From NCBI GenBank assembly GCA_009379955.1, contig WHST01000008.1, forward strand, positions 1-64,000: 64,000 nucleotides of DNA, read 5' to 3'. Origin of the DNA: Streptosporangiales bacterium. Its GTDB lineage: Bacteria > Actinomycetota > Actinomycetes > Streptosporangiales > WHST01. The translations under genes and the position numbers were made by a program. Positions 5,420 through 61,741 of this stretch are shown piece by piece. Positions within the stretch are counted from its first letter, which is position 1; each line of letters opens with the position of its first letter. The notes under the pieces are model-generated. The model worked only from the letters and a program-made list of their open reading frames with translations, ran no database searches and had not been told where the DNA came from.

Positions 5420-6538
5420 ATGACGCTCGGCTCGCCGGATCGCGACGCCACCGAGGTGCTGCTCGGGTTCGCGCGGGTGCTGCGGCACGCCGGCGTCGAC
5501 GCGTCCCCGGAACGCGTGCAGACGATGCTGGAGGCGGTCGGCGAGCTGCGGGTGACCTCCGCGTCGGACGTGTACTGGGCCGGCCGGGTCACGCTGTGCG
5601 CGGAGCCCGACGACCTGCCCACGTACGACGAGGCGTTCGCCACCTACTTCGGCGCCGACCTCGCGCCGGGTGACTCCGCCATACGCCAGGCCGCGCCGCG
5701 CAGGGAGACCCACCTGTTCGGCGTCGACGGTGACCTGGCCGACGGCGACGAGTCCGAGGTCGACGAGACCACGACGGCGAGCAGCGTCGAGGTGCTCCGC
5801 CATCGCGACGTCGCGCACCTGTCGCCGGCCGAGCGGGCGGAGCTGCGGCGGCTCGTCGCGCTGCTGCAGCCGTTCGCCCCCGACCGGGTCTCGCGTCGTA
5901 ACAGGCCGTCGCACCGCGGCCGGGTCGACGTCCCGCGTACCGTCCGGCGGCTGCTGCGGTCGGGCGGCGAGGTCGGGACGCTGGGCAGGCACACGCACCG
6001 GCGCAAGCCGCGCCGGCTCGTCCTCCTCGTCGACGTGTCCGGGTCGATGCGCCCGTACTCCGACGCGCTGCTCAGGTTCGCCCACGTCGCCGTGCGGCTG
6101 CGTCCCGCCACCACCGAGGTCTTCACCGTCGGCACCCGGCTCACCAGGATCACCCGCGAGCTGCGGCAGCGCGACCCCGACGAGGCGCTCGCCGCGGGCT
6201 CGCGGGCGATTCCCGACTGGAGCGGCGGCACCAGGCTCGGTGAGGCGTTCAAGGCGTTCCTCGACAGGTGGGGCCAGCGGGGCACCGCGCGGCAGGCGGT
6301 GGTGGCGGTGTTCAGCGACGGCTGGGAGCGTGGCGACGCGGACCTCCTCGGCGAGCAGATGCACCGGTTGTCGCGACTGGCGAGACGGGTCGTGTGGGTC
6401 AACCCGCACAAGGGCAAGGAGGGCTTCGCGCCGCTCACCGCGGGCATGGTCGCCGCGCTGCCGTACGTCGACGAGCTCGTCGCCGGGCATAGCCTGGCCG
6501 CGCTGGAGCAGGTCGTCGCGGCCCTGGGCCGCCGCTGA
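5420..6538 (+). CDS. coxE: vWA-domain protein (CoxE-like)
   Basis: 372 residues. The C-terminal half is a von Willebrand A domain with a complete MIDAS signature: LLVDVSGSM near residue 200, the threonine in WSGGTRLGEAF near 270, and VFSDGWERGD near 298. The N-terminal half is the helical region usual in CoxE/YehP-type proteins. CoxE pairs with the MoxR ATPase CoxD in cofactor maturation of molybdenum hydroxylases; here the two genes are three bases apart and precede the structural genes. Expected cytoplasmic location. Nothing is truncated. Confidence 0.85.
   Translation: MTLGSPDRDATEVLLGFARVLRHAGVDASPERVQTMLEAVGELRVTSASDVYWAGRVTLCAEPDDLPTYDEAFATYFGADLAPGDSAIRQAAPRRETHLFGVDGDLADGDESEVDETTTASSVEVLRHRDVAHLSPAERAELRRLVALLQPFAPDRVSRRNRPSHRGRVDVPRTVRRLLRSGGEVGTLGRHTHRRKPRRLVLLVDVSGSMRPYSDALLRFAHVAVRLRPATTEVFTVGTRLTRITRELRQRDPDEALAAGSRAIPDWSGGTRLGEAFKAFLDRWGQRGTARQAVVAVFSDGWERGDADLLGEQMHRLSRLARRVVWVNPHKGKEGFAPLTAGMVAALPYVDELVAGHSLAALEQVVAALGRR

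Positions 6539-6768: not shown

Positions 6769-6772
<4 letters not shown>
6659..6772 (+). CDS. Small coupled peptide, copy 1 (new 36-37-residue family)
   Basis: Open reading frame of 37 residues with a strong Shine-Dalgarno sequence (AAGGAGGG, 6648-6655) just before its ATG. It begins [15 protein letters not shown] and ends with [10 protein letters not shown]. Its TGA overlaps the coxS ATG by four bases (ATGA). The codons for LTLEA contain the GGAGG that serves coxS. Two other genes of this kind, with the same ends and the same coupled placement, lie at 17204-17317 (minus strand) and 60009-60119. The function is unknown; a translation-coupling leader or a true microprotein are both possible. 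I do not recognise the family. Confidence 0.6.
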
Positions 6773-7277
<505 letters not shown>

Positions 7278-7281
<4 letters not shown>

Positions 7282-16667: not shown

Positions 16668-17207
16668 CTACACCAACGTTCCGCTCTCGGACCACGACCG
16701 GAACAGGCCGGCGTCAGGCGTCTCCAGCGAGCCGAACCGGCGGTCGAAGTAGAGCAGCGGGCGTTCGCCCTGGGTGTACCCGCAGGCGAGGACGCGGCCG
16801 ACGAAGATCGAATGGTCGCCGCCCGGGTGGCTCTCCTCGACGGCACAGACGAAGTGGGCGATGGCGTCGCCGAGGACCGGCGCGGGGTAGTCGGGGAGGA
16901 GCGTGAGTCCGGCGAACCGGTCGGTGCCGCGCGTCGCGAAGCGCCGTGCGATCTCGATGTGGTCCTCGCCGAGTACGTTGACGGCGAACGTGCTGCTCGT
17001 CTCGAGCGCCTTGTGCGTGGGCAGCGTCTGCTGGATGCAGGCCAGCAGCTGCGGCGGGTCCAGCGAGAGCGAGCAGACCGCCGATGCGGTCATGCCGGCC
17101 GGTCCCTCAGGCGTCATCGTGGTGATCACGGTGACGCCGGTCGCGAGCAGGGACATCGAGTCCCTGAAGTGGGCCTGCTCGGGCTCGGGCGCTGGACGGT
17201 TGGTCAC
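16668..17207 (-). CDS. hpaC: Flavin reductase component of two-component aromatic hydroxylase
   Basis: 179 residues of the flavin reductase (HpaC/RutF-like) family, with the conserved N-terminal TGVTVITT and GMTASAVCSLSLDPPQLLA segments that bind flavin, and ERPLLYFDRRF near the end. The GTG start at 17207 has GGAGG seven bases upstream, inside the small peptide gene that overlaps it. It would reduce FAD or FMN with NAD(P)H for the monooxygenase encoded upstream in the same operon (hpaB, small peptide, hpaC). Confidence 0.87.
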   Translation of the reverse strand: MTNRPAPEPEQAHFRDSMSLLATGVTVITTMTPEGPAGMTASAVCSLSLDPPQLLACIQQTLPTHKALETSSTFAVNVLGEDHIEIARRFATRGTDRFAGLTLLPDYPAPVLGDAIAHFVCAVEESHPGGDHSIFVGRVLACGYTQGERPLLYFDRRFGSLETPDAGLFRSWSESGTLV

Positions 17208-17317
17208 GAGCCGTCCTCCGGAGTGAGCATCGCAGCGAGTATGGACACCGCAACGTTCGCGCCGCGCGCACGTGAGCGAGGAGCGGAGCGGAGGAGGACG
17301 GCGGGCAACACAGTCAC
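17204..17317 (-). CDS. Small coupled peptide, copy 2
   Basis: 37 residues, starting [15 protein letters not shown] (GTG start) and ending LAAMLTPEDGS. Its start overlaps the hpaB stop (GTGA) and its stop overlaps the hpaC start (GTGA), so it lies exactly between two genes known to work together. It shares both ends with the peptides at 6659-6772 and 60009-60119; the middle ten or so residues differ. DNA blocks GCTCCTCGCTC and GCTGCGATGCTCACT are identical in all three. Its last codons supply the GGAGG for hpaC. No recognised domain. Confidence 0.65.
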   Translation of the reverse strand: MTVLPAVLLRSAPRSRARGANVAVSILAAMLTPEDGS

Positions 17318-18810
17318 GACAGCGCCGGTGTCTTGCCCGCTGCGCCGTCGCCGGCCCGGTCGTCGAGGCCGTAGCCGTCGAGCGCGGTGTCGACGAGTGC
17401 CTTCGCGGCGGCGAAGTCGTAGTTGCCGAACATCCGCATCTTCACGACGAACGGCGCACCCGCGTAGAACATCTCGTATTGGTGGTGCCGGCTGGCGAAC
17501 TCCGATCCCACGAGGTCCCAGGCCAGCTTGAGCAGCTTGACGCGGTCGGCCGCGGGCACCCCCGGCGACTGGATGTACCGGTTGATCTGCTCGCTGATCT
17601 CGGGGGAGTGGAAGTCCTCCACCGACGAAGGCAGCTGGATGAGCCCGCCGCCGCACAGGTCGCGGACGAGGTGGAGCAGCTTGCCGTAGGTCTCCGGCTG
17701 AAGCGTGGTGTTCGCGAACGTCTCCGCGCTGCCCGGCCAGGCGATGCCGTGCTCGTCGATGTCGCAGTTGTACTCGGCGGCGAGCACGAGCCCGCTCACG
17801 GTCGTGGCGTGGGCGGCGAGCTCGCCGAGCGTGCCCTGCACCGGCGGCAACTTGTCGACGCCGTTCATCGCCGCGACCTTCGCCGCGACGCCCGCCAGGA
17901 AGTCGAGCTTCGCCGACAGCCGGATCTGCGCCTGGACGTTGCCGAGCAGCCAGGCAGGGGTCTCCCACCACTGCGCCTTGACGAGGTCGAGGTCGCGGTA
18001 CACGAAGACGTTCTCCCAGGGCACGAACACGTCGTCGTACACGACGAGGGAGTCGGTCTCGTCGAACCGGCTTGCCAGCGGGTAGTCGAACGTGCTCGTC
18101 GCCGCTTGGGCGTACGAGCGGCGGGGGAAGATCTTCACGCCGGGCGCGGACACGGGCACCATGACCGAGATGGCCTGGTCCTCGTCGCCGGGGCGCAGCG
18201 GGACGATGCTGCTCAGCTGGATCCAGTCGGCGAGCACGGCTCCGGTGCCGAGCATCTGTGCGCCCTTGATCACGATGCCGCCGTCGCGCTCCTCCTTGAC
18301 GCCGGCGTACAGGTGCGGATCGCTCTGCTGGTGCGCGGGCTTGGACCTGTCGATCTGCGGCGGCACGATCGTGTACGCGGCGTAGACGTCGTTCTCCGCG
18401 GCGTACCGGTGGAAGCGCACGACGTTGTCCGCGAACTGCTGACCGCCGCGCGCGAAGACGTGCGGGGAGGCGGCGAACCCGGCCAGGAAGCCGGCGACGT
18501 GGTCGGGCGTGCGGCCCATCAGGCCGTACGTCCGCTCGGCCCACAGGCGCAGGCCCTTGCGGCGGCGCGCGAGGTCCTCGGTCGACCGGGGGATGAGATA
18601 TGCCACATTGAGCGGCTCCCCCGTCTCGGGGGACGGGTACGTCATGGTCTCGCGGTTCGCCGGGTCGATGGCCGCGTCGTAGAGGCCTGCGACGGAGCGG
18701 ACGGCGCCGCGGAAGGCGGGGTGAGTGGTGACGTCGGCGACGCGTTCGCCGTCGATGGAGACGTGCCGCCCGTCACGGAGTCCCGCGACGTAGTCCTGGC
18801 CGCTGCGCAT
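17314..18810 (-). CDS. hpaB: 4-hydroxyphenylacetate 3-monooxygenase-type (HpaB) oxygenase
   Basis: 498 residues of the acyl-CoA-dehydrogenase-like HpaB family (HpaB, TftD, HadA and related phenol hydroxylases). It begins with the typical MRSGQDYVAGLRDGR. The protein takes reduced flavin from a reductase and inserts oxygen into a phenolic ring; the matching reductase is two genes downstream. The start at 18810 is chosen because the longer reading crosses the 33-bp palindrome. The exact phenol cannot be read; 4-hydroxyphenylacetate, a halophenol or a hydroxypyridine are all possible. Confidence 0.87.
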   Translation of the reverse strand: MRSGQDYVAGLRDGRHVSIDGERVADVTTHPAFRGAVRSVAGLYDAAIDPANRETMTYPSPETGEPLNVAYLIPRSTEDLARRRKGLRLWAERTYGLMGRTPDHVAGFLAGFAASPHVFARGGQQFADNVVRFHRYAAENDVYAAYTIVPPQIDRSKPAHQQSDPHLYAGVKEERDGGIVIKGAQMLGTGAVLADWIQLSSIVPLRPGDEDQAISVMVPVSAPGVKIFPRRSYAQAATSTFDYPLASRFDETDSLVVYDDVFVPWENVFVYRDLDLVKAQWWETPAWLLGNVQAQIRLSAKLDFLAGVAAKVAAMNGVDKLPPVQGTLGELAAHATTVSGLVLAAEYNCDIDEHGIAWPGSAETFANTTLQPETYGKLLHLVRDLCGGGLIQLPSSVEDFHSPEISEQINRYIQSPGVPAADRVKLLKLAWDLVGSEFASRHHQYEMFYAGAPFVVKMRMFGNYDFAAAKALVDTALDGYGLDDRAGDGAAGKTPALS

Positions 18811-18834
18811 GGATACCTGCCTGCCCGGGTTGAT

Positions 18835-18867
18835 TAGATGACTTTTGTAAATTACTTTTGTCATCTA
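18835..18867. promoter_or_regulatory. 33-bp AT-rich palindrome, copy 1 (operator)
   Basis: Arms TAGATGAC (18835-18842) and GTCATCTA (18860-18867) enclose 17 AT-rich bases. It lies midway between the divergent starts of hpaB and the AA_synth-enamidase operon. An inverted copy with one base change is at 48404-48436 before UbiD no. 3. AT-rich palindromes of this kind are typical MarR operators, and a MarR gene ends the divergent operon. Confidence 0.7.
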
Positions 18868-59305: not shown

Positions 59306-60012
59306 GCGCGCCGAAGGCGCGACCCTGGGAGGAGTACGTGCCCGCGGCGGAGCTCGAGAGCCTCGCCGCCAACGGGTTCGGCGCCCTCCAGGGCGCGGGA
59401 AGCAGTCCGTGCCTGCTCGTCGTCGACGTGGTCATGTCGTTCCTCGGTCCGCGGCCGGGCAGCGACGACCCGCCGTCGGTGATGGGGTGCGGCGACATGG
59501 GGTGGGAACGGCTACCGACCATCGTCGGTCTCGTCGACGCGATGCGGGCCGCCGGGGTCCCCGTCGTGTTCACCAAGGGCGATCCCGTCGACAAGGCGTT
59601 CTGCGGCGGTTCGGTGAAGCGGACGAGCGACGCCACGCTCGCGCGGGCGGTGCACGAGGCGCCGTTCCCCGCCGAGATCGTGCCGCGTGACGACGAGTAC
59701 GTGCTGTCCAAGCCGAAGGCGAGCGCGTTCTTCGGCACCCCGCTGCTCCCGTACCTGGTGCGCAGCGGCATCGACTCCCTGGTGCTCGTCGGTACGACGA
59801 CGTCGGGCTGCGTCCGGGCGACGGCCGTCGACGCGATGTCGAACAACCTCCACGTCGCCGTCGTCGCGGACGCGTGCTTCGACCGCTCGGCCTTCGCGCA
59901 CGCCGCGAACCTCTTCGACATCTCCATGAAGTACGGCGACGTGATCGCCGCAGACGACGTGAAGACGTGGACGGCGACGCCGGCCCACGCCGCGAGCGAG
60001 AGGAACACATGA
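59302..60012 (+). CDS. Isochorismatase-like cysteine hydrolase no. 1
   Basis: 236 residues. The catalytic triad of the family is present: Asp in LLVVDVVMSF near 42, Lys in SKPKASAFFGT near 141, Cys in TTTSGCVRAT near 170. Members include N-carbamoylsarcosine amidase, nicotinamidase and maleamate amidohydrolase, all acting on amides. It is coupled to tctB at the start and to the small peptide at the end (ATGA). A role in hydrolysing an amide released from a heteroaromatic compound is plausible. Confidence 0.82.
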   Translation: MSAPKARPWEEYVPAAELESLAANGFGALQGAGSSPCLLVVDVVMSFLGPRPGSDDPPSVMGCGDMGWERLPTIVGLVDAMRAAGVPVVFTKGDPVDKAFCGGSVKRTSDATLARAVHEAPFPAEIVPRDDEYVLSKPKASAFFGTPLLPYLVRSGIDSLVLVGTTTSGCVRATAVDAMSNNLHVAVVADACFDRSAFAHAANLFDISMKYGDVIAADDVKTWTATPAHAASERNT

Positions 60013-60119
60013 CAGTGCCCCCCGCCGTACTCCGCCGCTCCGCTCCTCGCTCCGCGAGTGCGTGCGTGCGGAATGCGCTACGAACCGCTGCGATGCTCAC
60101 TTTGGAGGACAACTCATGA
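60009..60119 (+). CDS. Small coupled peptide, copy 3
   Basis: 36 residues starting MTVPPAVLRRSAPRS and ending TAAMLTLEDNS. The ATG overlaps the stop of cysteine hydrolase no. 1 and the TGA overlaps the start of UbiD no. 4, both as ATGA. AGAGGA precedes the ATG. Its final codons contain the GGAGG that lies seven bases before the ubiD start. Same family as 6659-6772 and 17204-17317. No known domain. Confidence 0.65.
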   Translation: MTVPPAVLRRSAPRSASACVRNALRTAAMLTLEDNS

Positions 60120-61741
60120 CGGCCGACCGCACCTACCCCGACCTCCACGAGCACGTACGACGGCTCGAGGAGGCGGGTCGCCTGATCCGGGTGACGCGGC
60201 CGATCGACAAGAACACCGAGCTCCACCCGCTCGTCCGCTGGCAGTTCTGCGGCGGCATGCCGGCCGACGACCGCAAGGCGTTCCTCTTCGAGAACGTCGT
60301 CGACGGCAAGGGGCGCGCGTACGACATGCCGGTGCTCGTCGGCGCGCTCGCGTCCAACCGGGCGATCTACGCGCAGTCGATGGGGTGCGACCTCGACGAC
60401 GTCGGCTCCACCTGGGCCAAGGCGATCGCCGAGCCGATCGAGCCGATGCTCGTCGACGACGCGCCCTGCCAGGAGGTCGTGTTCGAGGGCGACGCGTTGA
60501 AGAGCAATGGCCTCGACGCCCTGCCCGTGCCCATCTCGACGCCGGGCTGGGACAACGGTCCGTACCTCACGAGCGCGCACTACATCACCCGCGACCCGGA
60601 CACCGGCGTGCAGAACTCCGGCAACTACCGAGGGCAGATCAAGAGCCCGACCTGCGTCGGGATGAACGCGTCGCACGAGCTCAACCAGGGCATCACCACA
60701 CACTGGAACAAGGCGCGGGCGAAGGGCGAGCCACTGCCGTGCGCGATCGTCGTCGGCGCGCCCCCGTGCGTCACGCTGACGGCGGTGCAGAAGATCCCGA
60801 TCGGGGTCGACGAGCACGCGGTGGCGGGCGGTCTGGTCGGCGAGCCGCTGCGGGTCGTCAAGGCCCGCACGGTCGACGTGCTCGTGCCGGCGGATGCCGA
60901 GATCGTGATCGAGGGCCTGATCAACACCGAGTTCCTCGAGCCGGAGGCGCCCTTCGGGGAGTCGCACGGTCACGTGAACCTGCAGGAGTACAACGCGTTC
61001 ATGGAGGTCACCGCCATCACCCGGCGGCGCGAGGCGATCTTCCCGTCGATCCTGAGCCAGGTCACGCCGAGCGAGTCGAGCCTGATCAAGCGGCTGGCGT
61101 ACGAGGAGCGGTTCACGACGACGCTCAGGGAGATCGGCATCCACGGCCTCAAGCGGGTGTTCCTGCACGAGCCGCTGACGAACATCCGCAAGTTCGTCGT
61201 GCTCGTCTTCGAGCGCGGGGCCGAGGAGACCAACGTCTGGCGCGCGCTGTACGCCGCGAGCTCGCTGCAGAACGCCGTCGGCAAGTTCACGATCGCGGTC
61301 GACGACGACATCGACCCCGACAGCACCGACGCGCTGCTCTGGGCGCTCGCGTACCGGATGGACCCGCGCCGCGACATGCAGGTCGTCGAGCACCGGTCGT
61401 GGGGTCACGGGCCGGCGGGACCGATGGACGACGGCCAGGATGCGGCGATCCTGATGGACGCGACGCTGAAGCGCCCGTACCCGCCGATCTCGCTGCCGAA
61501 GCGCGAGTACATGGAGCACGCGCGCGGGATCTGGGAGGAGCTCGGCCTGCCGGCGCTGGAACCGAAGGCGCCGTGGTTCGGCTACTCGCTGGGGGACTGG
61601 AGCGACGAGTTCGAGCAGGAGGCGAAGCTCGCGGTGAGCGGTGACTTCTGGCAGACGGCGGAGAAGAACGCCGCGCGGCGACGTTCCGACGTGCCGATGA
61701 ACGCACCGGTGCGAAAGTTCGAGGAGAACGACCATGCCTGA
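60116..61741 (+). CDS. UbiD-family decarboxylase no. 4
   Basis: 541 residues from ATG 60116; the upstream GTG 60062 would merely read through the small peptide region in another frame. Features as in UbiD no. 1: TELHPLVRWQFCGG near 38, PVPISTPGWDNGPYL, TGVQNSGNYRGQIKSPT near 172, EIVIEGLINTEFLEPEAPFGE near 283, and TPSESSLIKRLAYEE. It is flanked by two cysteine hydrolases and lies downstream of the tct transporter, suggesting import of an acid, amide hydrolysis and decarboxylation as one process. The product is unknown. Confidence 0.88.
   Translation: MTADRTYPDLHEHVRRLEEAGRLIRVTRPIDKNTELHPLVRWQFCGGMPADDRKAFLFENVVDGKGRAYDMPVLVGALASNRAIYAQSMGCDLDDVGSTWAKAIAEPIEPMLVDDAPCQEVVFEGDALKSNGLDALPVPISTPGWDNGPYLTSAHYITRDPDTGVQNSGNYRGQIKSPTCVGMNASHELNQGITTHWNKARAKGEPLPCAIVVGAPPCVTLTAVQKIPIGVDEHAVAGGLVGEPLRVVKARTVDVLVPADAEIVIEGLINTEFLEPEAPFGESHGHVNLQEYNAFMEVTAITRRREAIFPSILSQVTPSESSLIKRLAYEERFTTTLREIGIHGLKRVFLHEPLTNIRKFVVLVFERGAEETNVWRALYAASSLQNAVGKFTIAVDDDIDPDSTDALLWALAYRMDPRRDMQVVEHRSWGHGPAGPMDDGQDAAILMDATLKRPYPPISLPKREYMEHARGIWEELGLPALEPKAPWFGYSLGDWSDEFEQEAKLAVSGDFWQTAEKNAARRRSDVPMNAPVRKFEENDHA

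Follow-up and report, generated by a model that had tools for sequence, protein, structure and literature searches.

A short interspersed element, apparently mobile, at gene start codons of a Streptosporangiales bacterium

The stretch of DNA analysed here (the window) comprises 64,000 nucleotides, positions 1 to 64,000 of contig WHST01000008.1, from Streptosporangiales bacterium (assembly GCA_009379955.1). On its minus strand, a short open reading frame (ORF) is located between hpaB and hpaC, sharing one GTGA with the end of hpaB and another with the start of hpaC; the frame and both overlaps, as reported in a preliminary description made from the sequence alone, were confirmed. Two further copies lie on the plus strand (Table 1). 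The blocks GCTGCGATGCTCACT and GCTCCTCGCTC are common to all three copies, each being present exactly three times in the window, where 0.2-0.3 occurrences are expected and three matches were reached in none of 100 shuffles. GGAGG stands 7 nt ahead of the next start in all three. Coupling on both sides, which had been claimed for every copy, holds for copies 2 and 3 but not for copy 1, which touches no upstream gene: the nearest upstream ORF on the same strand ends at position 6538.

Table 1. Features of the three element copies in the window and of the adjoining genes.
Feature	Position	Strand	Remark
Copy 2, leader ORF of inserted element	17204..17317	-	37 aa; GTG start, TGA stop within hpaC start codon
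Left copy of duplicated start, GTGACT, overlapping hpaB stop	17312..17317	-	Empty site L136 in G001
5' arm of terminal stem, GCCGTCCTCC	17293..17302	-	Covariation
3' arm of terminal stem, GGAGGACGGC	17210..17219	-	Exact complement of 5' arm
Shine-Dalgarno (SD) GGAGG inside 3' stem arm of copy 2	17215-17219	-	
Conserved 3' block GCTGCGATGCTCACT of copy 2	17222..17236	-	
Right copy of duplicated start, GTGACC, the hpaC start	17202..17207	-	
hpaC, flavin reductase, host gene receiving copy 2	16668..17207	-	Pfam PF01613
hpaB, upstream gene, stop overlaps leader start of copy 2	17314..18864	-	Pfam PF11794/PF03241
Copy 1, leader ORF, 37 residues	6659..6772	+	Empty site L118 in G001
ATGACTGC, start region of copy 1, duplicated	6659 and 6769	+	
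CoxS-like [2Fe-2S] protein, host gene of copy 1	6769..7281	+	Pfam PF01799
Copy 3, leader ORF, 36 aa (MTVPPAVLRRSAPRSASACVRNALRTAAMLTLEDNS, then stop)	60009..60119	+	
UbiD-family decarboxylase, host gene of copy 3	60116..61741	+	Pfam PF01977

Genomes were searched with a profile built from 55 copies. About 77 copies were found in the source assembly, and 28 and 2 in its two congeners. A genome from another family contains at least eight, six of 55 Nonomuraea genomes (N. antri and N. endophytica among them) carry a single copy each, and relatives of the element are scattered elsewhere across the class. A structured model matched 7 of the 395 genomes of a class-wide sample; one of these is a Mycobacterium, and others are relatives in which the plan is the same. 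The 15-mer of the 3' block occurs 45 times exactly and 26 times with one mismatch in the whole assembly (reversed-pattern control, 0), and each exact 5' block in the genome is part of a complete short element. The core motif was also seen in other contexts, with neither an SD sequence nor a start-codon overlap on the same strand, at L178, L179, L180, L184, L185 (G661), L192 and L203.

No transposase or longer autonomous copy bearing the ends of the element was found in the source genome; an autonomous parent, which would make the element a MITE of a DDE transposon whose transposase-bearing form has the same ends, was considered and rejected, as no long copy is present in the host genome. Carriage by phages is unsupported, since viral contigs yielded no match to the core-plus-SD pattern. 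No Rfam family scored above its gathering score for the element.

A constant plan was derived from reading 69 copies. Elements are about 70-125 bp long, mostly 107-113 bp and typically ~105. The 5' end reads (A/G)TGACN-GTG-NNN-CCC, followed by GCCGNCCTCC and CGCTCCGCTCCTCGCTC; a free middle of ~24-38 nt leads to TCGCTGCGATGCTCACT, GGAGGNCGGC, TC and the next (A/G)TGA. Nearly all copies are flanked by the same start codon twice, (A/G)TGACN…(A/G)TGACN, have exactly 29 nt between the core and the downstream start codon, and finish in an NTGA overlap (-4 nt spacing). The leader ORF has no stop of its own; after 24-37 aa it ends where the next start codon supplies a TGA. All start-coupled copies are co-oriented with the host gene. 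The two ends lack symmetry about the duplication, an uncommon feature in a DDE transposon. Three copies (L014, L037 and L068) have no start codon following on their strand; L068 lies, in inverted orientation, just upstream of a reading frame beginning VDAVIFDWGGTLTP.

The genes behind the element proved arbitrary when examined genome-wide, with no shared function: they include those for IspH, lipoyl synthase (lipA), Era, FolK, NADH dehydrogenase subunit J (nuoJ), ABC permeases, response regulators, UbiD, HpaC and a conjugation ATPase, and the Nonomuraea host gene reads, by its sequence, as phosphatidylglycerophosphate synthase (pgsA). The earlier impression that downstream genes always have redox functions was therefore an artefact of n = 3.

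To locate orthologues in the congener G001, concatenated fragments of host genes were used. In this genome, CoxS, HpaC, a response regulator, an MFS transporter and others are encoded right behind the SD sequence or promoter, with no element in between; in the source genome, the same upstream sequence continues into the leader start. Two empty sites in Nonomuraea are exact to the base. Between rimO and pgsA, insert-free genomes (L226/L238) read ...AAGGCCGGTCC-ATGACC-AAGGACGAG, and the insert-bearing L215 reads ...AAGGCCGGTCC-ATGACT-[insert]-GTGACC-AAGGACGAG; species that do not have the element show ...ATCAAGGCCGGTCCATGACCAAGGACGAG, and N. antri shows ...ATCAAGGCCGGTCC-ATGACTGTG...GGAGGCCGTCTC-GTGACC-AAGGACGAG. 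The second is a locus of N. endophytica (L210 against L209). Across 58 copies, the two starts agree at position 1 of NTGACN in 39 (versus 30.3 when shuffled, p = 0.007) and at position 6 in 30 (versus 16.3 +- 3.2, p < 0.0002). This excess is the trace expected from a short NTGACN duplication, and some copies have longer exact repeats (ATGACTGC in copy 1 of the window, ATGACCGAGC in L013). Of the three roles initially proposed (a microprotein, a leader peptide that tunes translation, or a dispersed cassette carrying a start signal), the empty sites single out the cassette. Judging from its lineage-specific presence and clean empty sites, the element is apparently mobile.

We conclude, with a probability of roughly 0.87, that this is a short mobile interspersed element that inserts at gene starts, almost always at (A/G)TGAC, that its peptide has no detectable function, and that its leader re-initiates the host gene. 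Insertion duplicates the start region, roughly NTGACN, so that it flanks the element on either side. The leader begins at the original initiation site of the gene and would be driven by the old initiation signals of that gene, whether an SD sequence, a leaderless promoter or coupling to an upstream gene. A ribosome terminating at the TGA that the second start codon contains would then be positioned by the GGAGG in the last leader codons to re-initiate on the host gene; re-initiation through GGAGG would make insertion tolerable even before core genes. The data demonstrate the family itself, its target, the duplication, the empty sites, the constraint on the frame and the covariation of the terminal stem; from them we infer that leader and host gene are translationally coupled in cells. 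Insertions are found before genes that growth normally requires, which implies that these genes are still expressed; this is the strongest indirect sign that coupling works.

Our search of the literature on repeats and coupling revealed no description of this particular element, and, as far as we have searched, three things are new: the range of its hosts, the covariation of its stem and the empty sites exact to the base. Its kind is not. The classical MIRU is a 77-bp repeat of mycobacteria. A 2025 review describes mycobacterial MIRUs as mobile elements that insert at start codons and contain an ORF coupled at -4 nt spacing (PMC12548453), the same mechanism as the one proposed here; the kind was therefore already known, contrary to the preliminary description, whose author knew of no precedent. 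In the account of Supply et al. (1997), as relayed in that review (PMC12548453), MIRUs are short dispersed repeats with tandem copies at some loci; according to another paper, they exist only in M. leprae and the tuberculosis complex (PMC4213456). By this published description, the element works like a MIRU. Both are short, interspersed, multicopy repeats (here, ~77 copies) with apparent mobility, insertion at start codons, an internal ORF coupled to the host gene at -4 nt, polarity shared with the host gene and tandem copies at some loci. Unlike MIRUs, the element is found outside Mycobacterium, compensatory changes affect each of the ten pairs of its stem, and its middle is variable but in frame.

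Weak matches to the model were obtained in 15 of 347 Mycobacterium genomes, in which the core is shared but inverted relative to the gene. In most of these matches, the inverted core belongs to an ORF that ends in a TGA overlapping an NTGA start, and repeated starts were found in L193/L206 (ATGATCGTC) and L194/L208 (ATGAGCCC). ORFs with the inverted core, such as one ending in VSIAARHERGAERGGAEP and a stop, were noted at L193, L206, L194, L208, L195, L207 and L199-L202. The ETR-D primer site was found in none of the 397 Mycobacterium genomes searched, a set that includes no genome of the tuberculosis complex. It is conceivable, though we lean against it, that the element is a MIRU homologue in the strict sense, i.e., a member of one ancient class-wide family and not a similar element of separate origin; this would be compatible with our preferred explanation. 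The target, the -4 nt overlap, the polarity and the tandem copies are all the same, and Mycobacterium has elements in which this core is found between ORF ends that overlap starts, but in these relatives the core runs opposite to the orientation of the gene, the reverse of its orientation here. A broader conjecture, which we hold to be rather doubtful, is that transposase-free, start-codon-targeting elements, MIRUs included, occur class-wide and move via a folded single strand. The stem would then serve mobilisation, the template strand alone tolerating wobble pairs, and either orientation of the core (forward in Streptosporangiales, inverted in Mycobacterium) would yield a translationally neutral leader.

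The arms GCCGNCCTCC and GGAGGNCGGC are complementary, so that the ends of the element form an inverted repeat. In an alignment of 49 copies from five lineages, compensatory changes were observed in 10 of 10 outer stem pairs. With kinship among copies partly controlled, double-change cells numbered 61, versus 19.0 +- 3.7 for shuffled data and 5-22 with the partner slid, and permutation within lineages, with the same partial control, gave 878 paired cells versus 793 +- 6.7. For the most variable pair, the latter comparison yielded 67 versus 36.8 +- 3.9. Such covariation is strong, and would fit a cis-regulatory leader, for example a sensor of translation stress, in which an upstream ORF is combined with a hairpin that hides GGAGG until the leader has been translated: the SD sequence lies inside the 3' stem arm and was only ~9% unpaired in RNA folding, and the middle diverges while the ends stay conserved. 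A cause at the DNA level may, however, also underlie the covariation, and we regard regulation as improbable. The host genes have no common function, the copies are lineage-specific and missing at orthologous sites of relatives, and the variable middle contains no common stalling motif. Stem mismatches are more often A-C than G-U (44 to 15 overall, 27 to 5 in the source genome), whereas an RNA helix on the sense strand would be expected to tolerate the reverse; this excess is only suggestive, since copies were taken as independent in the test. No such strand bias is seen outside the stem. The folding energy of the whole element is close to that of shuffles (mean z -0.44), in a test that is in itself uninformative; together with the A-C excess, it is suggestive against a purely RNA-level role. 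The mismatches look as if pairing counted on the template strand. In our reading as a mobile element, the role of the stem probably lies in mobilisation and not in regulation.

Wherever a start-coupled copy has an intact host gene, its leader is in frame, at start-to-start lengths from 71 to 128 nt. Middles that break the frame were found in three of five copies that have no host gene, versus none of 64 copies with one (Fisher p = 0.0002). The preliminary description had presented a new peptide family; synonymous sites in the conserved blocks are, however, as conserved as nonsynonymous ones, and the middle is free in sequence. A check of codon substitution gave nonsynonymous-to-synonymous ratios of 0.40 in the RSAPR block and 2.2 in the AAMLT block, revealing no purifying selection on the amino acid sequence. 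Both the frame and the nucleotide sequence of the ends are thus of consequence, but the peptide apparently is not; it does not appear to be the conserved feature, the ends being kept as nucleotides. That the peptides (RSAPRS...AAMLTPE) form a true microprotein family with its own function is highly improbable: an open frame retained in more than 100 copies from several lineages and the somewhat higher synonymous change in the RSAPR block would fit it, but the AAMLT block shows the reverse, the middle third is unconstrained, the frame is lost exactly in copies with no host gene downstream, and Mycobacterium reads the same core on the opposite strand. A count of upstream ORFs that run, on the same strand, into the leader start was discarded as uninformative, since in GC-rich DNA the TGA of NTGA will close any open frame.

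Other known systems resemble the element in part. MITEs and palindromic repeats of the REP/ERIC type are likewise small and multicopy, with inverted-repeat ends and no coding capacity for mobility; the element differs from them in its start-codon specificity, its obligatory open frame and the asymmetry of its ends relative to the duplication; no parent transposon was found for it. Rickettsia palindromic elements are tolerated in coding regions since they keep the frame open, as here, but they extend proteins in frame, whereas the element adds a separate leader and restores the start. Leaders of the bicistronic design (BCD), in which a short first cistron before the target gene secures translation (PMC10367133, PMC5995908), share this arrangement; they are engineered and immobile, with neither a duplicated start codon nor a conserved stem.

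Start-codon-targeting, self-neutralising repeats are thus not confined to mycobacteria, and base-exact empty sites combined with a covarying stem make the mode of MIRU-type movement testable. Annotation calls for caution: many 'proteins' of 24-37 aa that overlap gene starts in actinomycetes are element footprints, and the start codons of element-bearing genes may be mis-called.

Tandem pairs of the element are present at three loci in the source genome, and also in G001 and G364. Behind the element in L036 lies a 10-codon mini-ORF (MTGCPGREAR), possibly a decayed second copy, with a stop that likewise overlaps an ATGA. The 3' block of L190 has expanded to an internal tandem, (TTCGATGCTCAC)3, with the frame preserved. 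L034 looks recombinant, its 5' end being L023-like and its middle and 3' end L025-like, a pattern that suggests exchange between copies.
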